Assembly: GCA_905160935.1 (NCBI GenBank)
Contig: CAJHZI010000266.1
Coordinates: forward strand, 569,001-633,000
Origin: Enchytraeus crypticus
Lineage: Eukaryota; Annelida; Clitellata; Enchytraeida; Enchytraeidae
Direction: 5' to 3'
Length of the DNA: 64,000 nucleotides
The number at the start of each line of letters is the position of its first letter. Positions within the stretch are counted from its first letter, which is position 1. A model generated the notes under the pieces. The model saw nothing but the letters and a program-made list of their open reading frames with translations. It had not been told where the DNA came from and made no database searches. The position numbers and the translations under genes were made by a program. Below, one piece after another: positions 30,466-63,372 of this stretch.

Positions 30466-32557
30466 TTAATCGATGGTAAGTTTTCTGAATGACTCTTGAC
30501 GTGGCAATGTTTTGGGTTTCTTGCTTTCATCCATTCTGTACCGATCGCTGGTGTGCTCCCATAGTCGAACCCTAAAAGCCGGATCAGTCAGTCTGCTCTT
30601 TATGTCATCTGCAGCAGACGATAATAAAATTAGAGGTAAATGTAATATATAAGTACATATGTACATGTATAAGTATATATATGCATGTTATTAAATCTTA
30701 AACAGAACTCCTTCAACTTATAAATTATCAAAAGAAATCCTGGATTCTTCCGTCACTGACAACGCTTTCGAGTGAGGAAACTAACGTTAATACATTGTAT
30801 TAGCTTTACTAGCCAATCAACGAGTTACACTGTCAGCAAGTTTATCAGACAGGTACCCTAACAATCGATGACTTAATCAATCAATCAATTGAAAGTCGAA
30901 TTTCATTACCTCACAGAAGGCGCAAATTTGTTTACTTTAGTCTTCCTTAGCTTATTTGGGCCGTATTTCTCCCACACCAACTTTTTTCGGGTTCTCTACA
31001 CTAAATTTTGCTCAGGTACATACATGTAGGTTCCCACAACCATTCATTTTATTGCTAAAATCCTATTATTGATTACATCAATTATATGTTTCATGCTTTG
31101 AATGAATCTGCGAAGCTATCTAAATTAATATCTCTATGACTAAATCTAAATTATGGTTACTCATTTTTTGTGCTAACGGATAGAAGCTTCTCCTGCACTT
31201 GACGTTAGGCATATTCAAATATGTTCAAATATAGTCATATAAAAATAAAGTTATACTTGTAAATGGGGACAATTGACATAAACTGAATTTTAAGATAAAC
31301 TATATTATAAATAGATCATATAAACTATATGACGAAAAAGTTATTGAATAGATTTCAACCTGTAATCTCATTCAGAGTTCCAGCATGCGGCCCCTTGTAA
31401 TCATCTGGAAGATACTCCTCTGGCCACAGTTCCATGGGAACAGCTTTGTAAAGGCTTTCCATGTTGTCGTGGGTATGTATCTGTTGGAATGAAAAAGCAT
31501 ATACATAAATAAATAAAATTAAAATAAATTATAAATATTTCAATATTTATAATTTCTTTAAATATTTCATCATTAGCTATCACCCGTATTGCTTGAGGCC
31601 AACTAAAGGATTACTAAATTCATAATTTTGTCTGCTAACATTTTGAAATAAAAGATAGATTTGTCGTAGTGTTAAATAGTCTCACCCTTAATGATTCATA
31701 ACTATTTCTATAATTTTATAAGTAAATTATTATTATTATTAATAGTATTATTCCTACTAAAATTGTTCCTAAAATTACCTTGCATATTGATAGCTTATTT
31801 CTCGTTTATGTTCAGCTTTATGAGAAAAGATTGTGCGTTAGAGATTTTAAAAAAAACTCTTGTAAGAGCTAAGATAATAAAAACAACAATAGCAGCAACG
31901 ATTAAAGCGCTACTGTCGTCATTGACAATGTCAAGCATTATTGAACCCAATCCAGTCCGATAAGCAAAAACAAGCGATTCAGACATGGCGCAAAACGCAA
32001 AATACGCAAATTGAGTCAAAAAGCGTGGAAACGAGAACGATTTCTATTAATTCATTAAATTCAGCTCGATATATTAAATCTAAAATCCCAAACGAAGCCA
32101 AATCTAACCTGTGTTTACTTTACTTTAAAATGATTTATAATTGGTGTCTGGTGGGCTACTATACCAATATAATGACTTTAGAGTTGTTAAACCATTATAA
32201 TTATTAATGCTACAAACAATAAATACATATCATAAAGGGACCTCGTTACGACTTAACGTATTTATTAGATAACAATGATTAGCATACTCTCTCCGTGTAC
32301 TTTGTCTTCATGAGAGGTTTCATGATGCCTAATAGCAGGTCCAGCACAGGTCCTGCGTTGTAGATGTGAAATGCCTTTATTCTTCCAGTGTTGCAATCCT
32401 AAATAAACATTAAAATATTTTGAAATGACTTTGAGATAAAGTTTATTTGGCATCTTTCAATGAAAATCTTAGATAAATGAATTACATTTGATAACTAAAT
32501 GAATGTTTGATCAAATTCGAATCCATATACACAAAAATTAAACATTACAGTACAGTT

Positions 32558-32590
<33 letters not shown>

Positions 32591-35500
32591 ATGTGTGTGT
32601 ACAAAAGTAACAGTAATATTACAAAAAGCAGCAAACAAAAACCACATATTTCCATTAGTTATTTGTGAATTTTATTAGTTAATTGTGTTAGTGTATTACA
32701 ATTAGGTAATCTGATATTTTGATTGGTTAAATATTAGCTTGTACGTTAAATTTAAAATCTGTTTCCGTATCCAGAATACCAGGGTGTCGTGAGGGCTTCT
32801 CACACTCACATTAACAGACCCGGCAACTGACAGATAACAGGAATCATCTTGGATATTCATCCAGTACTTATCATCACCGTCATCTTACCTTGAATTCCAG
32901 TTTGACGACACGTGCAATCTACATGTATTGTTGGTTTACTCTTTAGCAACCCGGACACAACACGTGGAACATTCATCTAATATTAGTAGCTGTTATTCAG
33001 ATAATCACAGGCCTAATGAGTAGCAGGCTGAAAAGCATGGCGTGGGAGTTAGTGTATATAAAATAATATAAATTAACCCTGATAAAATATAAGGAGTCAA
33101 AAACATTGAACGGCATTGCAAGTTGAGTTTAGAAGTGTTTTAAATATCATAATAATAATTCTTATTAAAAAGGTTTATCTTAACATTTCACATCGAAGAA
33201 CCAAACAACTGGCTTTCATGGAAAATATGATGATTTTTATTAATGACGATGATGAAGATGATGAAGATGATGATGATGATGATAATGATGATAACGATGA
33301 TGATGACGATAATGATTATGTGGGTTGAAGAGGACGCTGCATGAACAGTCTAGAATAAACACAAAATATCATCGAGTCCATACCTGATACAATCTGCTGT
33401 GCATCTTCGCTGTTTCAGGAGACATTCGCTTGAGAAATTTACTAGCGCCGTCTGTGAGATCAAAGATCACCTGTGCCCCATTGACCATAGCGTGCTCATT
33501 GTTCTCTTTCAGAAGTTCCTGCAGAGCCAAAGAAGCTCTGATTTCATTGGTGACAGACATCAGAGGGTTGTCGGTATTCACGACACCTGAGAGAGCATAG
33601 ATGAGACATTTTACGTCATTTTTATATATCCTATCATATACATAAAGGTTACAGATTCCCCAGCCGAAGACAATGCCAGGGAGATATTATGTGGATTTCG
33701 ACTGTTAGTAGTAGCCATCCATTCTATTCTATGGTATCCAAATATTTTTATAATATGGAGCTATTGAAATTATATTATTAATCTAAGTATGGATAATTTT
33801 GTTATATATACCAACTGAATCTATTGAAATTTTGAAAATATTTCAACATCATCTTCCCTTAAGAGAGAGATCTGTAACTTAATCTAAATATACACAACGC
33901 GCATACAACGAGACAGAACCAAATAAAACGGCCGTCAGAAATCCCAGTTTAGTTAGGGGCGTGTTTTAGAAAATAAAAATTTAAAGAATTAAATTTAAAA
34001 AAATAAAAGTATTCCAACTAGAATTAGGTAGTAGGTAGGCAATAGCTTAATAATTAAAGAGCTAGATAGTATTGAACAATAATTTAACACAAAAATTGTA
34101 GTTTACTATACAACATGTATGAACTACTCGAAAGCCGTTAATTATTTGAAGCTTTTCAATATTTGGGAGATTTTTAGAATCAGATGGTGAATATTAAACT
34201 GTGATTCAGTCAATGCTTGACTACATACAGCCTCTATAATTAGAATTCAAAAGAGACTTAATTCACAGTATACTTATGTATATTTCTCTTAAATCAGTAA
34301 GACTTAACGTTTTATAATTTCATTGTTTGCAACCTTGAGAGAATACGTCAAGAAAAATGAGAAATTGACATTTGGAACTTTGCATCACTTGAATGTGTTT
34401 TAAAAAGATGCAGCCATTGAAACTCGCTGAATGTTTACCTGTAGCGTATTGGTCCTTCAACTAATGCTCAGTAATTAGTGTACATTTGATACGTATTTTA
34501 TAAATTAAATTTTATAAATTAAATTTATAAACTAATTTCATAAAATTATTCATTGAAGTTACCTGGCCGAATGATTGTAATGTATCTTCCTTCCTTATCT
34601 GGCTTTGGCAGTGGTATAAACATTCTGCAGAAAACGCAACATATTTCATTTATGTATTGACTTCATTGAAATACATTATTCAAATGACATATTTGCATAA
34701 ATCATTAAGAAATATTCACGTCAAGCGCAAGACCGTAAAGTAGGTATTACAAATTTTTGAAATATGGCAAAATGTTTCCACCACACCTCCTTAATCTAAG
34801 TACGGAAAATGTAAATTTTTAAAAATATACTTCATTACAGTTTTAAAATTTTAATTAATCTTCATTACAGTAATTCCTCGGTCGTACTTAGTACATAAAT
34901 TTACCTCTAATACCACTTTTGAACTCGTAAGTTGCTACTTCTAATTGATTGATTGATTGATTGATTGCATGATCGTGATTACGTTAATTAAATTCAGTAA
35001 TTATTTTTAAAAATAAAAATAAAGTGCAACCAGTGCATAACTTTAAATTTGTCGAGGTAATTGGTTCAATAACTGATACAAGCCACGAGATAGTGAGTTA
35101 TCTCAATAAATAATTAAGGCAAATTTAGTGAATCATATACGCTATATCTTGAGTTCTTAATCAAAGCACTTAATTAATTGAAGTTAATTGGAAGATTTGG
35201 CTATCTTTAGATTAGCAAATTATTCCAAATTACTGATATTTTTCCTTCGACAAATTGTTATTTTTATAAGATTTTTAAAAGATTTTTGTAATTATTTAGA
35301 TTAGAAGGTAGGCTTAGTTTTCTACGATTTATTACTAAAATCGTAAATTGGCGTAGCCTTCGTTGCCTACTATATGATTTATGTCATTAAACTAAATTAC
35401 AGTAGACTTCAACAAACATTGAACAACGTATGTAATTATCAAGTTTAAACATTAATTTTTATGCACATTTTTAAGTATCACTTTATTTTGAATCTATGGC

Positions 35501-37413
35501 AGTTGATCGACCTTTGACCTAAATAAGCAATTTAATCAATTTCATGGTAATAAATGAAACAATTATATGAAAGCAATCAAAGAAAGTAAACACATGAAGT
35601 TTTTGACAGAAACGGCAATACAAAAATATGGAAGTAACAGGAATAAAATGTAAAATACACTAAATAAACTATAATACGGTAAAAATGAAAAAGCTCAAAT
35701 CATTAAACATATCGTTGAGGAGTGCCCTATAATCTACCTGCCGGGTGGTCTGTCTATATTAAGCTGCCTTAAAAGTGAAGCAGCTACCTGGACTAAAGCA
35801 CTAGCTAAATAAATTATCAAAAGTAGCCCAATATGAGTATCCCACTAACCCTTTCTCGATGAACGCAAGGATTCCGGGTTCCTGAGAATTCAGGTTCGTC
35901 GTCATACTCGGGTACCTCGAGTGCATATGAGCGATGTTCTCAACAATCTCTCGCGCCCTCAACTGACTGAATTTAGCCGTTCTCAAAATTTGCAGAAGAT
36001 AATCCGTATCTACATGTATAATTAGCACGAATAAAGAAAAATACAGCAAACCTTTTGATTGCGTGCAAAAACTGTATTAGACCTATGACGAAGTAATTAA
36101 TAAACTTTGTTTAACCACTGATTTCATTATATTTTGTCCACGTAACTATTTCACAGTTAAATGTAATCAATTAGCTTAACTAACGATGTAGCTAAATTAG
36201 GTGTTACAAATAAACCGCCAAAATATTTTGCTGAGACTTAATTAGTGGTTAAGTAATTTAAAGATATGGTTCTATCGATAAAGATTTATGAATAAGAAGG
36301 GTATATCTGATGGCGAAATCCAAACATGACAATTGTTAAGAATTTGCGATGATACCACAATTTATTTTCTTCCTCTCTGTTCTGAATAATTAAATACAAT
36401 TGCAAATTGCCCCATGAAATGTCATAACCGTTATGTTTAAAATCAGAAACTAAAGCCTAGCTTAGAGTCAGTTACCTGATTAAGAAATTATTTTACTGAC
36501 TGAGCTGGCACATAATTCGAACCATGTACCTACTGATTCGCAGTCGGACATCTGAACGAAATGTTACCGTTACATTCATTACATAGAATTAAGGCAGTCA
36601 GAAAAATTGTGCATATTGTGCAAAGGCCATACGCTAAACTACGCTAAAACGGATCAATCGATAAATAATTTTATAATAAAACAGATTAAATAGAGTAAAA
36701 AGACATGGAATTATTATCAGTTCGAATAAAATAGAAATAAAAATTCATACTACGACAAGTGGACTTAATTGGAATTATTACGATTATAATTACATGCCTA
36801 ATAAAGTTTCTTAAATCGTATAAATATATCATTTTACTGACTGGGAAAACGACGCACAGTAAGCAGCAAAATAATTTATGTACTTTGTAATTTATTTGCT
36901 AAATGCCATTTTACCAGTTGACGTTATATTACACCGCGGAAAATTTAATCATGCTGAAACTAACTAATCTAGTTTAAATTATGCTGAAACTTGGTTATCT
37001 AGTTTTAATTATGCTGAAAACAGCTTACCTAGTTTTAGTCATGTTGAACCTAGTTAATCCAGTTTTAATAATGCTGAAAACAGCTATGCTAGTTTTAGTC
37101 ATACAGAAACTAGCTAAGCCAGTTATAATTATGCTGAAACTAGAACTAGCTAAGCTAGTTTTAGTCATGCTGAAACTAGCCTATCAAGTTTTAATCGTGC
37201 TGAAACTAGCTAATCCAGTTATAATCATGCTGAAACTAGCTTACCTAATCTAAAAGTTATATGCGGCTGAGCTCTAATCCAAGCCCGCAGGTTCTGAACT
37301 GCCCCAAGCCTCTGGGACGGATCCTCGAATAAATCCCTCCTGGCTCTTTCCAGACTAGCTGCATCCAGTGTGCAGACGTAGTCCCTATCCTCTGGGTCAA
37401 CAGGAGGCAGCAT
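30466..37413 (-). CDS. CRAL-TRIO (SEC14-like) lipid-transfer protein, gene A, seven coding exons, complete
   Basis: Exons: 37413-37245, 36009-35850, 34624-34563, 33586-33384, 32398-32288, 31480-31360 and 30608-30466. All have GT-AG borders and matching phases, giving 969 nt and 322 residues. Residues ~1-75 form the helical CRAL-TRIO N region (NLRAWIRAQPH, then DTDYLLQILRTAKF). Residues ~105-260 form the lipid-binding fold (GAQVIFDLT, then GRIKAFHIYNAG, then IHTHDNMESLYKAVP and EYLPDDYKG). The family includes alpha-tocopherol transfer protein, RLBP1, clavesins and many arthropod homologues. They are cytosolic carriers of small lipids, and some bind phosphoinositides. The basic R-x-K before the AFH strand sits where alpha-TTP has its phosphoinositide-contact residues (inference). 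The ATG at 37413 has a strong CCACC context. An acceptor-like TTTTTGCAG ends at 37461, so a non-coding 5' exon is likely. The first of three tandem paralogues on the same strand. Ligand unknown. Confidence 0.92.
36955..37245. repeat. 30-bp minisatellite at the exon 1 donor of CRAL-TRIO gene A
   Basis: Unit ATGCTGAAACTAGCTAATCCAG plus eight bases. The register base falls at 36964, 36994, 37024, 37054, 37084, 37114, 37150, 37180, 37210 and 37240, with one 6-bp insertion. The last unit contains the donor (minus-strand AG|GTAAGC) of exon 1. Confidence 0.95.
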
Positions 37414-40044
37414 GGTGGAGTAGTGAAAATACTGTACAATTCTATTTGAACTGTAAAGATCTGCAAAAATCAATTTGCATTAAAATAGTATATCACAATA
37501 GACCTAGGACTGCAATATTTTAAATCGTGAATATGTATGCAAGGAAATGTATAAAAATAGGAAATGCAGCTCTTAGTGCAGTTATCAAGGTGAAAAACTT
37601 AATAGCTATAAGGGGTAATTCTTGATTTTTAAAGAATTTCCCTGAGCACGAAAGTCAATATAAAAATAATTTAAATCAGGCTATGGTTATATTAATGTAA
37701 ACTAACTTTTATCTGACTAAATTAAGGAAAATTACGATAACAAATTTTAAATGATCTTTATCTATATTAGATACAAAATTGAATCTTGTTGCAACAATTC
37801 ACCAAACACATTTATGATAACTGAAAATGTAATAAAATTATATAAATTATGAGTGTATGTAAAAGTACATGTTGTTCAATATACATGTGCAATACATATG
37901 TAGTACATCTAACTATGCCTACATGCGTGTAGTTTAGAATAATTCTAGCAATAAGCATAATATCAGTTAATATAACTAAAGAAGCAAACAATTTTTTTAT
38001 CAGTTGCAGTTAACCTACAGGAAGGCCTATTGAAACTATGTAATAATTGAAGCAATGACAAATCAATCATTAGCCTCTATAATCTATAGACCGAGGGTTA
38101 TCACCTTTGTGGTATCGTGAATGTCTCACTACATGGGGGACTACCATTGGTCCATTTAAAGTTTTTATTTTACTGATAAAAGTCGAGCAAAAGCAATACG
38201 CATGATGTAGGTAGCGGGATCCCTGACCCTCATTTCTGAGTAGTACTTTCTGTACTTTGTTGCGAAAACGTCCTCTAGGAATCGGCTGAGAATTTGCCTT
38301 CAAATGGGACACTTCGATTATGACCCCCAATTGTTTTTTGAGACATCCTCCTGCAGTTTAACGCTAATTAACAGCGAATCGCCAAAAGCAATCACTGACC
38401 TGATAGCCACACGGAGATAAATTGCCAACGCCTGAAGTTCGATTTGTACCTATGCGGTACGGCTAAATCAAGAAGCTATCTGTGTTATCTCAATTACTGG
38501 TAATAGCTTTTTATCAGCAATAGATTAAGGCGATATATTATACAGACTAGATAACAGTATTATCACCTTTATAATTTAAGTATTCTCGTCTGGACTATAA
38601 CAATATTCTAGATTTAGGGGTTTAAATTGATACTTTTGTAAAGATACTACTTCCAAAATTCGAACTTCTCTTAACATTTAACCCCGAATAGGTTCGAAAA
38701 CTGACTTGTTATATTTATCAGTATGTACGGGGTTCACAGCCTTGGCTGACCCGTCACTGACATCAATTTCGAATGAAAAAACTGACGTTAACATTAGCTT
38801 CTTTAGCAGCTTTTATATGGGTTATTTTATAATGAAACAGTAGATTAGAATGAAATCAGTACCGATAATATGTGTCAAAGTACATGTATTTATTATTACT
38901 TCTTATTTTGATATTAAATTTTGACACAAGCAGCTCGTTCAGTTATACCTGCATATATATTTTTAATTTCAGGCTGACAGGCAAATGTGATGAGTTGAAC
39001 TTAGATTTCTAAGACCACACGTAAAATACTTCTAGATATCTAATGACAATTCAGATGATAACTGATGATAGGCTTAGAATAAAAGTCCAAATTAATGTTG
39101 CTGTCAGATATGAAAAAACATTATTGATGCTTGCCCTTATGAGTTAATATGGACCAACCCGCTACATCCATTAGCTAATTGATTCATTTTAACTTCGATT
39201 TTGTTGAATTTTATTTATAATATTATTATTTTTGCAGGTAAATATTTAAACAAAATTTGACAGTAGGGTCAATTTTAGTTCCCAATTCTTACTAGTGTGT
39301 GTAGGATAGCAGACTGGAGAATTTACTTTGCATTGAGCCGATAGCATGTTGGCATGTTGTTCAACAGTGAGCAGTATTGAATATTGAATGGTTCAAATTC
39401 AGTTCTCTCTCCGTCACCTACATGTTATGGAGCATAAAACTGACGTTAAATTTTACTTTAACTTTATTCAGTGACACTCTAAAATCTAATAATTTATTCA
39501 CGAATTTGTTGTTGAATATTTGAAATTTTAATATTTCGCTTAGTCCACTCATAATATTAATATGTCTTCACTCCACCATTCCTTGATCATGTAATTAAAC
39601 AGATCAATCATGAACTGAACGTAACATCATACCCTGGTACTGCACGTGTGCTGTAATTAATTAATCAATTAATTAATTACATGCAGATATAGAATAGTTT
39701 CGATAAGATATATCAGCTTACAAATTTTGCTCATTAATTAAAGTTGTCCTACTTAACTACACATATATTATTTTAAAAAAATTAATTAGTATTACCGTCG
39801 TCGTTGTCCTAAGGTGAGAATGCATTTAGCGATTTAAAAAAACTTGCAATTTTAATGCAACTGTGTTATTTTCAATAATTATTTTAACTTAAACTAAACA
39901 AATATCAACAAGGAACCTTGAAGTACATGTATATATGATCATATAGCGGATCAGGTTAATATTTCAATCAATCTCGAAATATTTCCTTATAAAGTTTTGC
40001 TCTCAGTCAATTTCGGGTATTAAGCGAAAATTTAAACTTACGAA

Positions 40045-40235
40045 ACGTTACATGACAGATCCTGTGGTGAATTGAACCCTCGTGGGTTCGAATCCCAGCC
40101 GCGCTGATCTGAGAGTTAAAATCTCGGACATTCACTGGACTGGTTATACGGAAAATGGACTAAATTGCCTAACGGTTTAAACATAAATGGATATTAAAAG
40201 TGATAGATATCAACATAGTTGATACTTTCATGTTT
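40045..40235 (+). mobile_element. SINE family 2 copy
   Basis: Box B GGGTTCGAATCCC at about 40085, then GCCGCGCTGATCTGAGAG and CTAACGGTTTAAACA. The tRNA-like head is shortened compared with 6607-6852. Confidence 0.75.
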
Positions 40236-40577
40236 GTTTACGCTTAGAAACTATGAACCATTTTTATTTTTTCTCTTTTATTAGTTTCCGTATCACCAGG
40301 TTAGTTGAGATTATCTATTGGAGTTGGGAGTACTGTAGACTTTCTTATTGTACCGAATTTAAACAAAAGCGAAATGAAATGATTAAGAATATTATTTAGA
40401 TGTCTTTCTGAATTTCTGGATTTATCTTTCTATCTTTTCTGATTCTGGATTTCTAGGTTTTGGAATGTGCACCACTTTGACCCTTCGTTTTGCTCACCAG
40501 CTTTGTATTTGTCTCAACAGTGTTAGATATTTACCTGAATGACAGTAGCATGCTAATTGTTGTTGCGTTAATAATTT

Positions 40578-41060
40578 CTATGTGTTGTGTCCGGGTTGGT
40601 GAGGACTAGACAAACCGTACACTGCACGTATCGCAAAAGGCGACAAAGCACTAAGATCCAAACCAACGATAGAAACAGCATTCGGTTGGTGAGCACCTAG
40701 GCTCCAGAAATAGCTACACAATGTCCTAAAACGAATGGAAAATACCCCATCCCACAGAGAGGAATGGAGGTCTCATGTATGCGCGTTGTGTACATGCACA
40801 TTTTGATTCGGTTTCTAAGAAACAAAGAAATGATCATGGTTCTCTATCTCTCACCATCACCATCATCATCATCCCTTAATTCTAATTTAACAAGAGTGGG
40901 GATTATTAAATTCTACAGCCATTTGTGGAGCCATGGCGCTCATCAACCGAATGGCATTCTGACGTTGGTTTCGATCTTAGTGCTTTTCGCCTTTTACGAC
41001 ACTTGCAGTCCGCGGTTTGTCTATTCTTCAGCAACTCGGACACAACACTAGTGTGTTGTT
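40578..41060. mobile_element. Inverted pair of family 3 repeats
   Basis: A plus copy (40578-40770) is followed by a minus copy (40855-41055) about 85 bp away, both in the intergenic space between CRAL-TRIO genes A and B. The CCGGGTT/AACYCGG heads lie at the outer ends, so the pair could fold into a hairpin. Just outside, 41042-41095 adds a palindromic doublet (see findings). Confidence 0.65.
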
Positions 41061-41906
41061 GTCCTTAATGACAACAACACTGGTGTGTTGTTGTTATTAA
41101 TTACTAACTCAATTTGTAAACTTTACGTTAACCAGATCTCTCAAAGGCCTCACCACATCAACTGCGAGTGTTTTAATGGTAGTTATGAATATAAAACAAT
41201 TCGTAAAAATAAAACTCAAAAGTCAAAATAGAAAATCCCAAATTTAATTAAATAATTGAAGTATATAATCAAAGTTTATTTTGTTTACAATAAACAACAG
41301 TTTACAAAATTAACTAAATACTCATAAATATGTATTGTGCTCTTAAATACGATGAAGATGTGTAAAATACGTTAGAAAATAAGAAGTGTCTTAAAACATT
41401 TGGCTTATGGTTTACATAAGCAAAGACTGAATGGAAAATATTTATAAATTTAACTCAGTACGACATCACTGGACCGGTTTTTTGATTTTGGTTATTGGAT
41501 AGTGCTCCATATTTTAATCGACGACTGCAAAATATGTAATTGATTGATATTGTCCTTTGCTGCTTAATTATTATTATTTAATTCTAATTTTATTCAGTCT
41601 GACAAATTAAGCGTAAAAGTTGAAGAAATAAATATTGAATGTGGTTTCGAAATAGAAACTCTCCCAGAGGACTCTTATTGTAAATTTATTATGCATTAGG
41701 TCTTTAGATAAGGGTAAATATTTGACAGAATTAAATATATTTAGATATATTAAACTATATTTGAATTGATATAATTATATCTCGAACAAACAATTAACTA
41801 AAGTCAAAACTTTTACAAAATGAAGTCAATAATTTTATAAAAGCTTTTGCTTCTTTCTTTAAACACTCAATATCTTTGGTGTGGAATAGTTTTATGTGAT
41901 AACTAT

Positions 41907-42310
41907 TTAATCCAGGTTTAGTCTTCTAAACGACTCCTGTGGAGTGCTGTTGTCCTTCTTGCTGTAGTCTATCTTGTATTTCTCGTTTGTAACTTCCAGT
42001 AGTCTGGCACGGAATACAGGATCCTTCAGACGTCGCACCATCTCATCTGCGAAAACCATAGCGGATTACTTGAAGTACATATCGATCATATTCATCATCT
42101 ACATTTGAATACCAGTTTAATTAACTGCGGTCGGGATACGAATAGAACTTCTTTTCCATTGGTTTTAGAAATTGTTGCAGCAATTCTAAAGTCTAAGCGT
42201 GCACGAACACTGAATGCCCTTTCTGATTTTGGTAATCTATTTATTTACTTGTAAAAATGTAAAATATAATTTACTTGCATAATGATTTAGTTACTTGCAT
42301 TAAGTATATC

Positions 42311-42353
<43 letters not shown>

Positions 42354-45300
42354 AAAATATATATATATATTCATTATACATGTAAATAGGATTGTTTTCT
42401 CAGGGAATGACGCCCCTGTCCTAATAACTATGTTAGTCGCTGCTGAGGAAGGCATAGGGGGCCCATCTCGTCATAAGCAGAATCCCCCAAGAATAATGGT
42501 ATATCAAAAAGAATATCATAGATAATTTAAAGATCCACAAGTATGTGGATATAAAGAAGAAGATAGAGATGAGTGGAGGCGTTATATGCCACGAACCTGC
42601 CAGTGGGCGGTGCACTACGAGAGAGATACATGTATATATATATTGTATATATACAAGATAATATACATTATATATGATATTTATTAAGAAATAGAAAAAA
42701 GAATTGGATAGGACACATTCTAAGGGGGAAGGTCTATTAAAAGAGGTCATAGAAGGCAGAATGGAAGTAAAAAGAGGCAGGGGCAGGCCGAGATTAGGTA
42801 TGTTAGATGATTTAAAGACCCACTCATATGTGGAAATGAAGAGGAAAGTATAAGCCAGAGAAGAGTGGAGGCCTTATATACCATGGACCTGACAGTAGGC
42901 AGTGCACTAAGAGAGAGATACATAAACACAATTATATAATTACGGCTAATGTCCTTCAAAGAACCAGCTGATGGTCCCTTGTAGTCATCCGGTAAATATT
43001 CAATCGGCCAGAAGTCCATGGGAAAGAATTTGTAGAGGCTTTCCATTGTACTATGTACGTATATCTACAACAATCACAACATCGTAACAGAACATCCTTG
43101 TAAATCGTCAATCATCATCATCGCATCATCGTCGTCGTCGTCGTCGTCGTCATCATGATCATCGTCGTCGTTGTCGTCGTCGTCGTCATCATCATCATCA
43201 TCATCATCATCATCGACTACATTGTCGTCATCGTCTTCAATTACTTTTATCATAAATTTCTTGAACTATACCAGTTTGGGTGTCTGGTCTTCGTTTCACC
43301 TCAAGATGCCGATGAAATTGTATCAAATTTCTTATCTGAAATCTTATCTTATTACTTATCTGGAGATAACTAGTTTCTAATAATGAGTAGAAACTGCGCT
43401 AATTTACTGCTATTATCATTTTGCCTCTTCATTGTTACACTCTTCTTATTTAATTAAAGCTGCGTTACAAACTTATACAAACTGATCCGAAACTACATGT
43501 AAATCATGATGTTACAGTTTGAAAGAGTTGAATGTGATTGCTCTTCTTCGGCTCATCATTCAATTAGCCATGCAGCGTATGACTGTGTTGTCATACAGCT
43601 GATGACTTTGGTGACATACATCTTATGATCTTGGTGACAATCTTGTTACTTTGGTGACAAAAAGCTTATGACTTCGATGACATAAAGCTTATGACTTTGG
43701 TGACATAAAGCGTATGACTTTGGTGATATAAAGATTATGACTGCAGTGACATAAAGCTTGTGACAGTGGAGTCATAAACTTATGACTGTAAAAGACAAAG
43801 CTTACCCTATCTACAAACTTCTTCTTGAAGAAAGTTTTCATCAACCCGACAATAACCTCAACGAGAGCTCCAGCGTTATACAAGTGAAATCCTTTCATGC
43901 GACCAATACTGCACTCCTGTGCATTAATAAACACAACTATATTAGTTTTAAGTCTTTTATTTAAAGTTTGTGTCGTAGTAAATATTTATTTTGCTGCGTT
44001 TCAGAAAGAAGAGTTAATATAAAATGCAATGTCTTGCTTGGATAACGATAGATGGTTTTTCTTTATGGAAATGTTTGTTATTTATTCATTATTATTATTT
44101 AATATTTGTATTGGCTTATTGTTATATTGGTTTTGGTTTAATCGTGCATTGATTTTTATTACTTAGTGCTTCTTATTTATCAAATTTGTCGTTAATTATA
44201 CAATATTTTCAATATTGAAATGACATTAATTAATTAAACTTTTATATTCATAGCTTGTTCAAAAAAAAATTAATCGTACTAATATCATAGAGACCAGTAC
44301 GAATTCAGCTTATTGTAGCTCTGTAAAGAAGAAAGGGCGAACTAAAACCATCGGGTGGAGGTTTGTTTGCAAAACATGCAGTTCTACTTACTGGCAACTT
44401 TAATTTATTTGTTTAGTTCGCAGAAATTTATTAGTTCTTATGTGACTATTTGAAATCAATGCTAAAATTGCGGTGTCGACCTTTTCTCTTTTTATTGCTG
44501 ATGTAAATAATGCTTTCTACGTTCAAGTCCTAATGAAAATGAAATTTGAAGAGCTTCACCCTCCCCCTCTCACTTCAGTTTCGAATATTTCTAAAACAGG
44601 ATGAAACAATTCAAAGACAATATAATCCTACCTAAGAGACATAGAGAAATTTAGACAAAATGATATTCAATCCGACTGTACAGCTGATTCTACTTAACTA
44701 ATTATTTATGTCTTGTCACTGTATGAAATAGGTAGTCATGCTTGTAAAAAGTTCGAGAAATTTGACAAAATAATACTAATTTAATACTTCTTTAACATAT
44801 TTAATACTTTTTTCTATTAATTTAAGAAAATTAAAATCAATTAATTGGAAATAATTATCTACCTGCAACAGTTTCGAGAAGTTTCTCTGTTCGCTGGACC
44901 CGGCTCGAGTGATGTGCTTCATGGCAACGCCAGTCATGTCGAACACAACGTGGGCCCCGTTAACTATTCCGTTCTCGTTGTCTTCATTCAGCAGTTCTTG
45001 TGAGGCCATACTAGCCCGCATCTCGTTCTCTATGGTCAACAGCGGGTCATCCAGGTCCAGGGCACCTAAACGTTTAACCAAGTGCAGGTCTTGGAGATGA
45101 GGCTTTGCAATGAACGATAGTATTGCCGGAGGTGCTAAATAGGCGCTAAATAAATGATAAATACAGAAATTTCACACTGCTAGAAGGAGCCTGCTAATGT
45201 GCATAAGCAGTAATCTAAGAGACAATGAGAATCATATATCAAATCAATTGATTTAGAGTATAAATCACGGATAATTAAATCGCGTATCATTAAACCGCAC

Positions 45301-47804
45301 ATAATTAAACGACGGATCATTCAGCCACAGATCATACAGCCACGGATCCTTAAATCAATCGATTAAAAATTTTTATAATTATTGAATTTCTTATAATAAT
45401 AGCTTTTAACACATTTGATAAAAGCAAAGTTAAGTGCATTAATAAAATTTCACTATAGACCTTGCACTATAGACTTTGTAGATATAGACCTTCTAGTTAT
45501 ATCACTTCTAAATCTACACAAATTATCTCATACTTCCCTTCGGAAGATTGAGATAATTAATATAGTTGTGATTGAACTTAAACATACATGTATAGCCTAT
45601 TCTTCTACTTAAATTAATTTCAGATTGAAGAGAGGTTAAGCAATAGTCGCTAGAGTATAGATATTCAATTAGTCGCTGGAGCTGGATAAATTTCACAACG
45701 TAATTACAATAGACTTTATGAAGACTAGACTATATAACTTTTTTGAAGTTATTCTTGAAATTAAAATGAAACAATCTTCCTTATATCCCAGGATCAATTC
45801 CCAGCGAGGCTGATAAGAGAGTAGAATCTCAGACATTCACCTTTCAGTGTACACCGACGCACCTGACGTCTTGAAGGAAAGCCCTTCGGGCTTCTGACCT
45901 TGACGTTAAACACACCTTTAAAAAAGGAAAGTAGGAAACAATAACCAATAATAAAGGAGAGAAAAAGAAATTACAAAATAGCAGAAACAGAAACAAAAGG
46001 AATAATTTCAGCCCAATTACGTGCGATGTGGCATGTGCGTAAATAGATTTAATAATATATAGTATACTTACTGTATCTCGCAAGAAAAAGCCTTTGACCT
46101 TCAGAATTGCTCTTTGGGAGTGGTATCAAATATCTGAAAAATTGAAAAACTCAGAGAATAGTTATAGTAACAAATTATGTTTTAGCTACAGAAAATATAC
46201 TCGCCTAGCAACGGCTATATTGGGAGTTGGTTTGCCAAATTTCGATACCACGAGCTGTAATTGATGATCAAGATTTATTTTAATTAGGCAAAACTTTTCA
46301 ATTGCACTGTTAATTTGTGTGACGTATGGGTTATTATGCCTGAATTAAACGGAAAAATAAAAATGAAAACTACTCAAGCAAATTTTCTAAACAACTTGAA
46401 GACTTAGCCGAATTTTAATTCTATCTTAAGAAATGTTGATAACGAATTAATTGTTCTATTCTCATGCCATTTAGAATGTCAGTTTCTACCCTCTTTCGAA
46501 AAAGCGTAGAATGCCAGGCTCATGGCTGTCGATGTTGACAGTGTACTGAGGATACTTGGTCCTCGCTGTGACCATTGTCTCTATGATCTGTCGAGCTCTC
46601 AGTTGACTAAACTTGGCGGTTCTTAGGACTTGAAGCAGAAAATTTGTGTCTGCAAATATGAAGAATAATACGATACTAATTAATTGCTCACGTTGCGTCC
46701 TGGTTGCGGAGAATAGATCAATCGTAGATATAAAATCGTAAATAGATCAATGTGTCTTAAAAGGCGACAAAGCACCAAGATCTAAACTAACGTCAGAAAA
46801 GATATTCGATTGGTAAGCGTATAGGCTCCAGAAATTGCTAGAAAATTTCGTAAAGCCAGACCCTAGCTAAACTTTGATTCAAGGGAAGATGATGCCTATG
46901 ATGCTAAGATACTAAATAACGCTCCTAGACTACAAACACACATCAAATATTCTTGTATGGAGAATCAAAATTCAATAATTCAGAGGTCTTAAATATGAAA
47001 AAGATGGGAAAATAAATCATTAAAAGAGGAATTAGAGTCCGGTTGTTCATCCGAAGGCGTCATCAGTAAAATTTTGAGTTGACTCTGCAACTACAAACAT
47101 TATCGAATCATGTGATAGATATTTACACATTATGTCAACAACGAACGAAAATCGAGTTTCAAAACAGTGCAAGTCCACAATTCATTTAGGACCTTACTTA
47201 TCTTCAGCACATGCCTTTTACAGTTTGTTCTTGGGGAATTTTTATGGAGTGTTGTGTGCTGTGTGGAAGTCTCTGATATCATCCTGGGATGAGAAAATGG
47301 ATATTAAATTATAATAATAATTATTGTTATTACTGCTACTGTTGTTATTATTTATATTAATTATTAATATTCTTATTAGTAGTATTATTATTACTAGTAT
47401 TATTTACATATTTTTTATAAAAAAAAATTTATAACATTGTAAGTGCAGGTATTGATTAATGTGGATTTTATATGATAGTTTACTATTAAACTATTCTATT
47501 ATAGTTCTCCTGTTATTTCTCTTTGTTAACAAAATTTCAAATTACAGACATGTGAGGATTGCAAAAACTCTACGATGATTTAGAATAATAGGTTTTACAA
47601 TACATGAAAATTTCTTATTATTAGTAATTCTTAATATATTTATCTACCTGTTCGAAAAGTAAAATGTGGTTGGGCCCTGATCCAAGCCCTAAGGGCCTGC
47701 ACAGCCCCCAGACGTTGCTTAGGATCCTCATTCAGTTCCCTGATAGCTTTCTCCAGGCTGTACTCAGTCAGCGTACACACGTAATCCTTGTCCTCCGGAT
47801 CCAT
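41907..47804 (-). CDS. CRAL-TRIO (SEC14-like) lipid-transfer protein, gene B, seven coding exons, complete
   Basis: Exons: 47804-47648, 46649-46490, 46133-46072, 45065-44863, 43916-43806, 43064-42944 and 42046-41907. All have GT-AG borders and compatible phases, giving 954 nt and 317 residues. Exons 2-6 have exactly the lengths of gene A (160, 62, 203, 111, 121 nt). It carries the same landmarks: an N-terminal helical region with ALRAWIRAQPH and FLLQVLRTAKF, a core with VNGAHVVFDMTG, GRMKGFHLYNAG, then MESLYKFFPMDFWP and EYLPDDYKG. The tail (PQESFRRLNLD) is shared with A and C. It is closer to gene C than to A in exons 5-7. The likely role is a cytosolic carrier of a small hydrophobic ligand. 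The ATG has G at -3 and +4. An acceptor-like TTAAG lies two bases upstream of it, so the first coding exon may be preceded by a non-coding exon. Tandem arrays touch exon 1 upstream and exon 5 downstream. Confidence 0.92.
42420..42925 (+). mobile_element. Two tandem LINE 3'-end copies
   Basis: Two successive plus-strand copies (about 42510-42640 and 42700-42925) of the LINE end ending in GCCAGTGGGCGGTGCACTACGAGAGAGATAC and its relative. The second begins RIGHILRGK-like and continues LKEVIEGRMEVKRGRGRPRLGMLDDLK, then stops at a TAA (42849-42851). Both lie in intron 6 of CRAL-TRIO gene B, opposite to the gene, and the second ends only about 20 bp from exon 6. Confidence 0.7.
43095..43232. repeat. 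(TCG/TCA)n trinucleotide array
   Basis: TCATCATCATCG and TCGTCGTCG tracts in the intron of gene B between exons 5 and 6. Similar arrays: 27843-27902 (TCA/TCT), 33243-33325 (GAT) and 58275-58515 (TTA/TCA). Confidence 0.95.
43575..43805. repeat. 22-23-bp minisatellite ending in the exon 5 donor of CRAL-TRIO gene B
   Basis: Unit ATAAAGCTTATGACTTTGGTGAC. CTTATGAC-type words begin at 43665, 43688, 43711, 43734, 43757 and 43779, and CTTACC (the donor) at 43801, spacing 23, 23, 23, 23, 22, 22. Older, more degenerate units extend to about 43575. Confidence 0.95.
45240..45358. repeat. ~17-bp degenerate tandem repeat in intron 3 of gene B
   Basis: ATCATTAAACCGCACATAATT-like and GGATCATTCAGCCACA-like units, roughly seven. 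Not adjacent to an exon. Confidence 0.7.
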
Positions 47805-47806
47805 TT

Positions 47807-47965
47807 CTTAATAGAATACACTACTTAAATATGCCTATTACTTAAATATACCTATTACTTAAAGAAACCTATTACTTAAAGAAATCTATTACTTAAAGAA
47901 ACCTATTACTTAAAGAAACCTATTACTTAGAGATACTTATTACTTGAAGTTAACTATTACTTAAA
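47807..47965. repeat. 17-bp minisatellite directly upstream of the gene B start codon
   Basis: Unit CCTATTACTTAAAGAAA. CTTA falls at 47807, 47824, 47841, 47858, 47875, 47892, 47909 and 47926, an exact 17-bp step. On the minus strand each unit reads TTTCTTTAAG, an acceptor-like motif, and the last reads TTAAG two bases before the ATG. Confidence 0.9.
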
Positions 47966-48354
47966 GATACTTATTGCCTATCGCTATCGTCTAAATGGTT
48001 TCAAATAACTGAAATCAGAAAGGTTTACTTTCATATTAGTACTTAATACCTGATAGGGTGTTAACTGATCTCTTTTTAAAAAATCTATACGATTTTATTT
48101 AAAGTATTGCTCATAGTATACTGTAATATCTTTAGAAGTGTAAACAGGTTAAATATTGACATCCAGCAATTTTTAAATCTCTACACTAATATATTTCTAT
48201 ATACAATTATGCAATACATGTATATTTTACATGTAAACTAGGTTAGAAGTTTATAAAGTACATGTTGTAGGATATCCTACGATTTCAGCGGCAACAAAAC
48301 ATTACCTGAGTCAGAAGCTCTTACTGTACTGGAGAATCTTACCTGGCAGCTGAT

Positions 48355-59186: not shown

Positions 59187-61883
59187 TTAAACTAATTCGA
59201 AGGGTTTCGTCCTCTTCAGTCTGCGCACACGATGTCGTTGATTAAGTAGTCTAAGAGCTTGAGGATTGATGTGACGACTGAGCCGATCTTGATGTCTTGA
59301 TGCCGCCTTTCTTATTTCTTCTGCTACCAGAGTTATTTTCAGATCACGATGAATATCAGCATTTCTGATGTACCACGGAGCATTTACAATGTTTCTTAAG
59401 ACCTTATTCTGGAACGTTTGTATGATTTTGGTATTTGATGATTTCGTGCAGCCCCACATTTGACATCCATAAAGCCAGACTGGCTTCAGAACCTGACAAT
59501 AAATTATAAGTTTATTATTTACCGAAAGTTTAGAATTTCTCCCAATGAGCCAGTAATACTGCCTATATTTGAGGTTGAGCTCATTTCTTTTCTTCTTGAC
59601 ATGCACTTTCCATCTCAACTTACTATCTAAATTCATGCCAAGGTATTTAGCACTATTTTCGTAGGGAACAACAGTACCATTGATAGCTAGCCTTTGCGGA
59701 TTCTTCATTCTTTTGTTCGTGAAGTTTACGTGAACAGACTTTTGTTCATTTAACTTTATCTTCCAAGATTTAGTCCACTCTAGAAATGTATTACATGCTG
59801 CTTGTGCTCTGGTCGTCGATGTGGCGAGATCCTTGCCAGTTGCGATTATTGCTGTATCATCTGCAAATGTGGCCATAGTAACTCCTCTCATAACTGGAAT
59901 ATCGCAAGTGTAGAGCAGGTAAAGGATTGGTCCAATCACGCTTCCCTGTGGAACGCCTGCATGTATTCCTTTGAGATCAGAATATTCATCGTCATATTTA
60001 ACTCTATATGATCTATTCGAGATATAAGATGTTAATATCTCTGTATACTGTTGTGGCAACTGCTGGTTGAGTTTATATACTAGGCCTTCATGCCAAACTT
60101 TATCAAAAGCAGCAGCTACATCTAGGAATAATGCCGTACAGACTTCCTTTTTCTCTAATGCATTCTCGATAACGTCAGTTATTCGATGTACCTGTTCTAT
60201 TGTAGAATGCTTTTGTCTAAATCCAAACTGAAAATCCGGGATTAACTTTCGTTCTCCGATGATCGGTTTCATCCGTTTCAGAAGTAACTTTTCAAAAAGT
60301 TTTGATATAACAGGTAGAAGAGAGATAGGTCTGTATGATTTGACGTCGTTAGGAGGTTTACCTGGTTTTTGTATCATAATTACCTCAGCAACTTTCCAGC
60401 TGTCTGGTACGTATCTCAGTCGAAAAGCAGCATTAATTATGTACGTCAACATGACTAACCCTTTCCGTGGCAGTTCTCTCAAAATGAATCCAGTGATCAG
60501 ATCGAATCCTGGAGCCTTTCTTGGACTTAAATTTGTTTTTATTTCTTGAGCCAATTCTTTAGGGGTAGTTAATGGGATAGCTTCAAGATTGCTATTAGGG
60601 ATGAGATGTAGTGATATATTATTCTGAACTGGGTTTGGTTGAAAAATCTCATACAGGCTTTCAGCAAAGAGGTCGGCTTTTTGCTTATTGCTTCTGGCCC
60701 AGGGCTCTGTTCCATTTCTGACAGGAGGAATTGAGACTATGGGTCTTTTAATTCGCTTTGTAGCTTTCCATAGAGAATAATCGCCGTGTTGAGTTGTCGT
60801 TAGGTTACTTAGATAAGAATCCATTGACTCATCTTTTAGTTTCTGTATTTCTCTTTTCAGGTTTTGGGTTCTATTGTTTAGAATAATTTTATCTCCTGGA
60901 TCTCTAGTCTGCTGCCACCTTCGTCTTGCCTTCCTCTTCTCAGTCACAAGCCGTCTAATTTTAATTGGATAATTATTACCCGCAGTAGGAAAATGTCTTT
61001 CTCGAGTGTTCATGTAAGCTGCATTCTGTATTATTCTAACAAATTTATCCACTTCGTCTTCTAGCTGCTCTGCAGTTTTCAGAGGAACTTTCAGGTTAAT
61101 ATTACTTTGCAGATCACATTTGAAACCCGTCCAATCGGTAGATTTATTTATCAATGTAGGTCGAGATTCTTTTTTGAATGTATTCTCGCTTAGTGTGAGA
61201 AGTACTGCAGAGTGGTCAGAGTCAAGATCATAGTTATCATCAACATGGAGGAAGTTTGCTGCAACTTTCCTGGTTATGAAGAAATCTAGCATATCAGGGA
61301 GTTTATTGGTATCAGTTGGCCAGTATGTTGGCTTACCTGCAGACTGGAAATTGCAACCCAGTTCTTTTATGGCCTTTAGTAATTCATTGCCTTTAGTTGT
61401 AGTAATTCTAGAGCCCCAGTCTACATGCTTAGCGTTGAAATCACCTCCAAGAATAAATCTCTCGCCAAGTTGTTGTAAAAGTACTTTATATTCAGCTAAT
61501 TTCAGATTATATCTCGGTGGGATATAGACAGCCCCTATAATTAGTGTTTGCTTCATTGATTTAATTGAAACTAGGGTAAGCTGCATTTCTGGCTTTTGTA
61601 AGTATCTTTCCTCATGATGACAGATTGTGTTTTTAACAATAATAGCACTGCCTCCTCTCGCCTGATTGTCTGGGTGAATGGTGTGGTAGAACTTGTATCC
61701 TCTAATTTTTAGGTATGACTCGCTTGTAAAATGTGTTTCAGTTATTAAACAGACATCTATTGATTGAATATGTAAGAATACCTCCAATTCTGTTTTTTTA
61801 TTCAAAATGCCATTAGCATTCCAGAGTGCTATTCTTAAGTCTGTTCTATTCACTATTAAGATTAAGACTTTGAGATGACGCAA
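59187..61883 (-). CDS. LINE ORF2: apurinic-type endonuclease plus reverse transcriptase
   Basis: About 898 residues without a stop. The endonuclease occupies residues ~17-230: WNANG at 21, ITET at 47-50, GGDFNAKH at 146-153, DMLDF at 197 and SDH at 222-224, all expected catalytic landmarks. The reverse transcriptase spans ~500-760: YRPISLLPV at 517, LDVAAAFDKVWH at 587-598, GVPQGSVIGP at 643-652 and the FADD active site at 673-676. A C-terminal region with repeated Trp/Cys residues (YGCQMWGC) follows. The protein nicks target DNA and reverse-transcribes its own RNA from the nick. The frame is +1 relative to ORF1 and opens after a TAG at 61898. The frame contains no ATG near its beginning (the first is about residue 100), so the start given is the non-ATG TTG at 61883. 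Confidence 0.9.
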   Translation of the reverse strand: MRHLKVLILIVNRTDLRIALWNANGILNKKTELEVFLHIQSIDVCLITETHFTSESYLKIRGYKFYHTIHPDNQARGGSAIIVKNTICHHEERYLQKPEMQLTLVSIKSMKQTLIIGAVYIPPRYNLKLAEYKVLLQQLGERFILGGDFNAKHVDWGSRITTTKGNELLKAIKELGCNFQSAGKPTYWPTDTNKLPDMLDFFITRKVAANFLHVDDNYDLDSDHSAVLLTLSENTFKKESRPTLINKSTDWTGFKCDLQSNINLKVPLKTAEQLEDEVDKFVRIIQNAAYMNTRERHFPTAGNNYPIKIRRLVTEKRKARRRWQQTRDPGDKIILNNRTQNLKREIQKLKDESMDSYLSNLTTTQHGDYSLWKATKRIKRPIVSIPPVRNGTEPWARSNKQKADLFAESLYEIFQPNPVQNNISLHLIPNSNLEAIPLTTPKELAQEIKTNLSPRKAPGFDLITGFILRELPRKGLVMLTYIINAAFRLRYVPDSWKVAEVIMIQKPGKPPNDVKSYRPISLLPVISKLFEKLLLKRMKPIIGERKLIPDFQFGFRQKHSTIEQVHRITDVIENALEKKEVCTALFLDVAAAFDKVWHEGLVYKLNQQLPQQYTEILTSYISNRSYRVKYDDEYSDLKGIHAGVPQGSVIGPILYLLYTCDIPVMRGVTMATFADDTAIIATGKDLATSTTRAQAACNTFLEWTKSWKIKLNEQKSVHVNFTNKRMKNPQRLAINGTVVPYENSAKYLGMNLDSKLRWKVHVKKKRNELNLKYRQYYWLIGRNSKLSVNNKLIIYCQVLKPVWLYGCQMWGCTKSSNTKIIQTFQNKVLRNIVNAPWYIRNADIHRDLKITLVAEEIRKAASRHQDRLSRHINPQALRLLNQRHRVRRLKRTKPFELV

Positions 61884-63063
61884 TCGCCTCAGCCTCTAGC
61901 GCGTTAAGTCTTTCACCAAATTTCTTAAAACTCTCCATCATGTCCTGAAACAGTAGCCTCAGATCAGACGTCTGGTTTACACTGGGAGTAGCAATTCCTT
62001 GCTGCCTATTGGTTGCCATGGAGTATGAGGTACCTCTCTGGACAAGAGATGGCTTCGAGGTAGTAGTAGTGCTCGTGGGTCTTTGTGATTCTTGTCTTCG
62101 TTTCTGAAGTTCTTTGGCGATGACACAACCTCTATAGCTTGCTGGATGGGCTTCACCGCAATTTGAACATTTGGCTGGCAGGTCTTGTGCCTTAGTACAT
62201 TGGGATGAGTCGTGATTTCCAGCACATTTGACACAGACAGAATCACGATAGCAGAAATTTTTGGTGTGACCAAACCTTTGGCATCTTTTGCACTGAGGGA
62301 TTATTTTATTTGTTCTTAATGCCTCAATCTTGACTCTCATGTGGCATAAGTATTGGATACTGAAGATCTTCTTGATATCCTCCGTCTTATCAAAAACGAG
62401 AGTGAACATGGGTAGGGGAACACTTCCTTGAGCTGTCTTCTTATGCCTAGGTTCAACCTGGATTATCTTGAAGTCTTGATTTAGCAATTCGTCTTTGATT
62501 TCATCCGGATCACAGGAAGAGTGCAGATTTTTAGCGACAACTCTGATAGGCCGGTCTAGCTTATTCTCGTAAGTATGCCACTGATACTTATTCTGCTCAA
62601 CTACATCTCTCAGTGCCCTGTATTCCTCTGAAGTATCCACATTTATTTTGACCTGGTTATTATTTAGACACGCAGCCTTGTATTTAAGATTTTTGCTTTC
62701 TAGCAATTTCTTGATCTGATCATACTGCTCAACTTTGCTGATGATTATTGGGGGTGGTTTTTGCTCTCTAACAGGTTTTGGCGCCGGGTCCATAGGTACA
62801 GTTAAAGTTGAATTACTGACTTCTCCCGCTGGATTTTCCGCTGGTTTTTCTGCTGTTTTTATCAAGTTTTCTCGCAGTTTCTTGCGTTTTTTCCCTCTGG
62901 GGTTCAGCCATTCCGTTTCACGGTTAACTATCTCCTCCTCCTCGGATTTAGTTGGACTGCTGTCCTTCTTGTATAGTTGTCTATAGAAGTCTAGCTCAGA
63001 CTCTAGATCTTCTATTTTTTTCAAAGCTCTTTGCAACGATATCTCTAATTTCACCTCAGCCAT
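61846..63063 (-). CDS. LINE ORF1: zinc-knuckle nucleic-acid-binding (Gag-like) protein
   Basis: 405 residues; the ATG has A at -3 and G at +4. A coiled-coil-like amphipathic segment lies at residues 3-30, followed by a basic KKRKK stretch near 58-63 and a proline-rich linker. A PRE_C2HC-type RNA-binding region follows at roughly 170-250. Three CCHC-type knuckles are visible at residues 258-271 (CX2CX4HX4C), 277-289 (CX2CX3HX4C) and 299-313 (CX2CX3HX6C). This is the ORF1 layout of Jockey-clade elements such as the X-element. It coats the element RNA and forms the retrotransposition particle. ORF1 overlaps ORF2 by about 40 nt and is followed at once by it, so the two are translated from one transcript. 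Confidence 0.9.
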   Translation of the reverse strand: MAEVKLEISLQRALKKIEDLESELDFYRQLYKKDSSPTKSEEEEIVNRETEWLNPRGKKRKKLRENLIKTAEKPAENPAGEVSNSTLTVPMDPAPKPVREQKPPPIIISKVEQYDQIKKLLESKNLKYKAACLNNNQVKINVDTSEEYRALRDVVEQNKYQWHTYENKLDRPIRVVAKNLHSSCDPDEIKDELLNQDFKIIQVEPRHKKTAQGSVPLPMFTLVFDKTEDIKKIFSIQYLCHMRVKIEALRTNKIIPQCKRCQRFGHTKNFCYRDSVCVKCAGNHDSSQCTKAQDLPAKCSNCGEAHPASYRGCVIAKELQKRRQESQRPTSTTTTSKPSLVQRGTSYSMATNRQQGIATPSVNQTSDLRLLFQDMMESFKKFGERLNALEAEAIASSQSLNLNSE

Positions 63064-63372
63064 GATGTTTAGATCAGTGCAACAGGTGGATGATCAGTGA
63101 CGCGTGCATAACGCTGCGCGAGCGTATAGGACAAAGGTCAACCGGTGTAAACAAAAGTTCGTTTAATTTCTGATAATTCTTCACGGAAAGCGATGAAAAT
63201 CAGCTAATATCCGTATGCCAAAGTAAATCTATATATAATCCATAAATGGGCAACCCAGAGGGATGAGAATGTGACTATAACTCGATAAATTTACTATCAA
63301 TAACTTAGCAATTTTACAAGTAAACCTCCTTGTTATTGTTTACCGTAGATCCAACAATTTTTAGTCCAACAT

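Follow-up and report, generated by a model that had tools for sequence, protein, structure and literature searches.

A degenerate 30-bp tandem array at a splice donor of Enchytraeus crypticus, and the frequency of tandem arrays at splice junctions in its genome

Intron 1 of gene A, a minus-strand gene in the 64-kb stretch of Enchytraeus crypticus DNA analysed here (the window), opens with a 30-bp tandem array that is in register with the exon 1 donor. This array is probably a minisatellite whose anchor is an old splice donor. In a sample of junctions drawn from the same genome, tandem arrays were several times more common on splice junctions than at matched sites, and for this reason gene A is most simply read as one case of a general tendency, of the kind described in amphioxus as 'mirage' minisatellites.

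The 30-bp array at the exon 1 donor of gene A

Exon 1 of gene A (37245..37413, minus strand), delimited by its open frame and by matches to paralogs, is coding from the ATG and ends in phase 1. Its donor GT lies at 37243..37244 (minus strand, context TAG|GTAAGC) and is seen on the plus strand as CTTACC (37240-37245). Exon 2 (35849..36009, minus strand) has its start placed at 36009 and an approximate end, and homology supports the joining of exon 1 (37413-37245) to exon 2 in phase 1 (G|AT). The sole match of the gene A family in a PDB search was retinaldehyde-binding protein 1 (E 0.6), which we take to be a CRAL-TRIO protein, and the host family is thus weakly suggested to be CRAL-TRIO-like. 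The exon 3 pieces of gene A (13.8 bits, E 0.052) and gene B (18.1 bits, E 0.0025) did not reach the PF00650 cut-off (22.6 bits), scores which are compatible with CRAL-TRIO membership because single exons are short; the two places listed by the PF00650 search of the assembly both lie outside the window.

TRF delimited the array at 36944..37241 (minus strand; period 30, 9.7 copies, 73% matches, 4% indels, score 290). By stacking the units we recovered ten of them, anchored at 36951, 36981, 37011, 37041, 37071, 37101, 37131, 37167, 37197 and 37227, with spacings (six of 30, one of 36 and two of 30) that correspond to one 6-bp insertion. The original prediction, namely that a 30-bp register with a single 6-bp insertion runs into the exon 1 donor, was confirmed by both approaches and the register match survived software alignment, with the qualification that TRF itself starts the array at intron position +3 and, while supporting the register, does not extend it into the exon.

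When set in the register of the donor, the consensus of the nine intronic units reads GATTAAAACTAG|ATTAGCTAGTTTCAGCATGATTA and gene A's own copy reads CTTTTAGATTAG|GTAAGCTAGTTTCAGCATGATTA. Between -3 and +23 the two differ at +1 and +3 only (all 20 positions from +4 to +23 equal the consensus), and it is these two bases that convert ATTAGC to GTAAGC. The array thus has its edge at the donor of a coding exon, and the register takes in the donor and three exon bases. Upstream of -3, exon 1 bears no significant likeness to the unit in a rough profile (7094 of the 19860 12-mers of the window score equally well), which does not support the exon 1 tail as a part of the array; the array begins at the donor and does not continue through the exon. 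When the array region was searched against the assembly as DNA (common words being skipped), only the gene A locus was returned.

We reason that the first 30 bp or so of intron 1, together with the donor, would have been duplicated in tandem, with slippage or unequal exchange then raising the copy number. The copy next to the exon would be kept as the working donor by purifying selection; the intronic copies would drift, most of them having lost their GT. Judged from the layout of the locus, splicing would most likely occur at the exon-side copy, because only this copy adjoins the whole exon.

A second donor-like site had also been reported, as an identical CTTACC at 37024-37029, and it is indeed there (GTAAGC, 37024..37029, minus strand). 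It belongs to the unit anchored at 37011, the only one of the nine intronic units with a GT, and lies 216 bp (7x30+6) from the gene A donor, to which its GTAAGC is identical; the donor 9-mer TAGGTAAGC recurs unchanged at +216. The in-frame TGA expected upon retention of intron sequence was found as well, since read-through past the exon 1 donor continues as ...FRLGKLVSA and then meets a stop. Thus, a second donor is present as sequence, and it could in principle act as a regulator, being used at times and lowering expression through its stop codon. The identical 9-mer and the stop met on read-through agree with such a role, but the other eight intronic units have no GT and folding gave no sign of a structure favouring the true donor, making this reading very improbable. 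In one 400-nt fold the true donor had a mean unpaired probability of 0.36 and the second site one of 0.43 (0.28 and 0.51, respectively, in local windows). Masking of the second site by RNA structure was thus not supported.

Paralogous genes and the age of intron 1

Exon 1 of gene A matches six further places (gene B in the window, genes C and D beyond it on the same contig, and one gene each on C555, C383 and C450). All seven genes also have exon 2, for which there is in addition a weak place on C321 with two stops. The position of intron 1 is common to all seven paralogous genes (the end of exon 1 being placed by eye for the distant three). Because they share it, intron 1 appears not to have been newly made by the capture of a repeat unit, and intron gain by tandem duplication was rejected on the same ground. 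An array like that of gene A is absent from the intron 1 donor of the other six genes. In B (exon 1 at 47652..47804, minus strand) and C, whose corresponding intron had been singled out for comparison, the position is shared and no array was found near the exon 1 donors. Hence the gene A array is, from the comparison of paralogs, most likely younger than the intron in which it sits.

Two origins had been put forward at the outset, an array that grew outward from the donor and a donor that is a captured repeat unit. The second is disfavoured for the origin of the intron, and survives only as a local overwriting, in which an array born within the intron would have reached the old donor by growth or conversion, leaving as today's donor a repeat unit changed at two bases. 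Such an event is suggested by the gene A unit, which departs from the consensus at +1 and +3 alone, two changes being enough to give GTAAGC (unit 37011 has both), and by the end of exon 1, which is TTAG in gene A and ACAG in B, C and D. However, it would require a splice site to be replaced with no loss of splicing. Growth outward from the donor fits better than capture, although it stays unproven, with GT kept in one of the nine intronic units.

Other donors of the gene A family carry arrays unrelated to that of gene A. The D1 donor is followed from +5 by a 22-bp array of different sequence, a further gene D donor (D3) has a weak 22-bp array that spans the junction, and the C555 and C383 genes show CAAT/CAGT-like runs directly after the donor (by eye). 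In paralog B, a 23-bp array (43574..43789, minus strand) starts 18 bp after the donor of another exon (Bmid, GT at 43804-43805). An exon donor of this paralog reads GTAAGC. At none of the 14 acceptors placed in the family does an array edge meet the junction.

The four related minus-strand genes A to D form a tandem cluster (30469-47804 and C184:633001-653000, loci L019 and L020). At the expected end of gene D exon 2 (L020, 77860-77702 in window-style numbering) a canonical GT was not found by eye (GACCGACAGTAGG); the junction here is possibly altered or broken. Another array (47822-47975; 17-bp unit, 9.1 copies) lies upstream of paralog B, beginning 18 bases from its start codon.

Tandem arrays at splice junctions of the genome

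The frequency of arrays at exon borders was assessed in 260 junctions (130 donors and 130 acceptors) of myosin-head and TCP1 exons that were chosen without regard to repeats. We used 80 of the 83 myosin-head places (two were dropped as too near the locus end and one as overlapping another match) and 50 of the 64 TCP1 places (a single-exon copy, six places of two long-frame copies and seven further places were left out), with splice sites placed by homology, open frame and a simple splice score, without transcripts. The gene A family contributed a separate set of 16 donors and 14 acceptors placed by eye, from which the A2 and D2 donors and the exon 3 acceptors were left out. Arrays with a TRF score of at least 100 and a period of at least 10 were regarded as strong, and 886 pseudo-sites with the same splice scores, taken from the myosin loci away from known junctions, served as control.

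Strong arrays span 28 of the 260 junctions (9/130 donors and 19/130 acceptors), as compared with 2.9% of the 886 pseudo-sites, and at least one spanning case occurs in 16 of the 30 contigs, which bears out the expectation that arrays meet exon borders above chance. Resampling whole contigs gave a bootstrap range of 6.5-15.7% for spanning. An exon-side array edge was recorded at 38 of the 260 junctions and at 3.4% of the pseudo-sites. With the gene A family added, 28 of 290 junctions are spanned (7.9 expected) and 40 of 290 carry an edge (9.9 expected); the binomial values for these 290 assume independence, and junctions of the same gene are not independent. The excess is modest under a looser cut (TRF score of at least 50, all periods), with 29 spanning cases against 18.6 expected, and a first look at 114 junctions had given 8 spanned against about 4.9. 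The excess also varies between the families, from 11 of 50 TCP1 acceptors to one of 50 TCP1 donors. Among exon-side array edges between -120 and +230, 56 of 71 fall at -50 to +55, a concentration to be read with the fact that distant arrays are harder to detect in short stretches. On C332, three genes of muscle-type myosin heavy chain lie close together (near 750, 790 and 829-835 kb).

The background is itself rich in repeats. Tandem repeats make up 13.4% of the background bases in the myosin loci, with one merged array (score of at least 50) per 1192 bp, and between 2.7 and 3.4% of random positions show an array edge of the kind counted here. At such densities an ordinary intronic minisatellite could have come to end at the gene A donor by chance. 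This explanation we hold to be unlikely, given that array edges occur at junctions about four times as often as in the background and that the last unit of the gene A array agrees with the consensus at 20/20 positions from +4 to +23. The background alone would account for around a quarter of the edges at junctions (9.9 of 40).

The spanning arrays multiply the splice sites themselves. At L132 the exon end and donor are repeated (ATCATGGAG|GTAAGCTAGG, six copies including the gene's own), as they are at L048 (CTAAAG|GTATTTTAC, five copies), while at L131, L133 and L047 the acceptor and exon start are copied, four copies at L047 (C129:388227) being identical across 40 bases. Copies, counted within 400 bp at 26/40 identities or more, keep GT in 23 of 26 cases at donors and AG in 43 of 45 at acceptors, as opposed to one GT among the nine intronic units of gene A. 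Thus, gene A is a degenerate, edge-anchored case among boundary arrays, and its array looks older or has lost its decoys. That copies elsewhere mostly hold intact splice sites and exon sequence is what a source at the junction would be expected to yield; it counts against a local overwriting of the gene A donor, to which we give little credence. Our preferred reading of an array anchored on that donor is weakened by the loss of GT from most gene A units, the TRF start at +3 and the unlike exon sequence upstream of -3, which make gene A less than a clean spanning case.

The junction excess would arise either because duplication starts more often there, or because arrays persist longer at sites that never lose the last of their copies. 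The median match is 88.5% in spanning arrays and 84% in 41 background arrays, a difference that fits both more duplication at junctions and longer survival there. For one spanning case (L036) the called donor is possibly a second copy, and a raised copy identity right at the splice site was set aside, as ungapped centring favours the middle. Frame-keeping units were rejected as a factor, periods that are multiples of 3 showing no excess (11/28 spanning and 17/41 background arrays).

A second type of repeat was recorded near acceptors, in the sense orientation. In 19 of 144 acceptors (among them L050, L076, L101 and L120, from the myosin-head and TCP1 sets) the 100 bp upstream contain at least three exact TTGA units, and in one of 144 they contain such a run of the reverse complement. 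At donors, TTGA runs were found in 1/146 cases and the reverse complement in 4/146, and random 100-bp windows contain them at 1.65% and 0.57%, respectively. The branch-point consensus is YTNAY, and as TTGAT fits it, (TTGA)n is a candidate for multiplied branch points and may act as such. Pairing of complementary tetranucleotides across introns, an idea that comes from fish introns, is not favoured, since no more than 4 of 146 donors are followed by TCAA runs.

Taken together, we tentatively propose, at somewhat less than even confidence, that in this genome tandem duplication, or its retention, favours splice junctions, about one junction in ten being enclosed by an array of copies of its own splice site, and that (TTGA)n multiplies branch-point-like signals upstream of acceptors, so that the spliceosome would routinely have to pick the right one among several near-identical sites.

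Known systems and further features of the window

The closest counterpart is found in amphioxus, where 'mirage' minisatellites of the Adh3, globin, troponin C and PGBD5 genes are described as tandem duplications of 5' and 3' exon-intron boundaries, with units ranging from tens of bp up to some 160 bp, AG/GT present in many copies, and regular splicing staying undisturbed (PMC3087553, PMC3902484). The spanning arrays of this genome fit the description given in those passages, in an annelid lineage and with a frequency measured here against background; the gene A array, unlike the amphioxus arrays so described, barely enters the exon and has most of its copies without GT. We found no report of boundary arrays outside amphioxus in the open-licence literature, within the portions of it that were available. 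If about a tenth of junctions carry tandem copies of splice sites, the genome would offer a natural setting in which to learn how the spliceosome selects one of several near-identical sites, boundary arrays would not be peculiar to amphioxus, and the settling of duplications at exon borders would call for an explanation.

Intron gain from tandem duplication was reportedly treated by Zhuo in 2007 and by Gao and Lynch in 2009. As presented in PMC4974935, for example, it resembles the present case in that the tandem copies include splice signals, and differs from it in that intron 1 of gene A is common to seven paralogous genes and not new. The arrays would also allow a test of whether they feed new splice sites and introns, as is proposed for boundary arrays in the passages on amphioxus globin genes (PMC3087553).

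Earthworm metallothionein genes have minisatellites in intron 1, with repeat regions of 10-19 kb and exon copies that are absent from transcripts (PMC12783039). Gene A shares with them a minisatellite array in intron 1 of an annelid gene, whereas units anchored on a splice site are not described in the relevant passages of that report. In amphioxus VCBP3, partial exons with splice sites are mentioned inside introns (PMC2632668, data not shown there), a likeness in that exon pieces and splice sites are copied into introns, and a difference in that the passage does not call them tandem arrays.

Features of the assembly outside the window also make an annelid or a near relative likely as its source. 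Contig C802 (15,205 bp) encodes a COX1 in which AGA and AGG read as Ser, ATA as Met, TGA as Trp and AAA as Lys, judged at positions aligned with mammalian COX1 or otherwise conserved. Such a code argues against vertebrates, ascidians, echinoderms, sponges and cnidarians, and the use of AGG, with conserved residues, would also argue against amphioxus. The erythrocruorin linker domain, an annelid feature, has matches at five places, and one myosin exon is marginally nearest to chains of scallop and squid. PF01341, tried as a tunicate marker, had no match, a result without weight because its controls were silent too.

Elsewhere in the window, two long minus-strand reading frames of 902 and 415 aa occupy 59187-63093. 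They look like parts of a non-LTR retrotransposon. 'ATRTQ'-like peptides recur in the translations at 32838-33023, 40701-41051 and 46486-46746, which hints at a short interspersed repeat.
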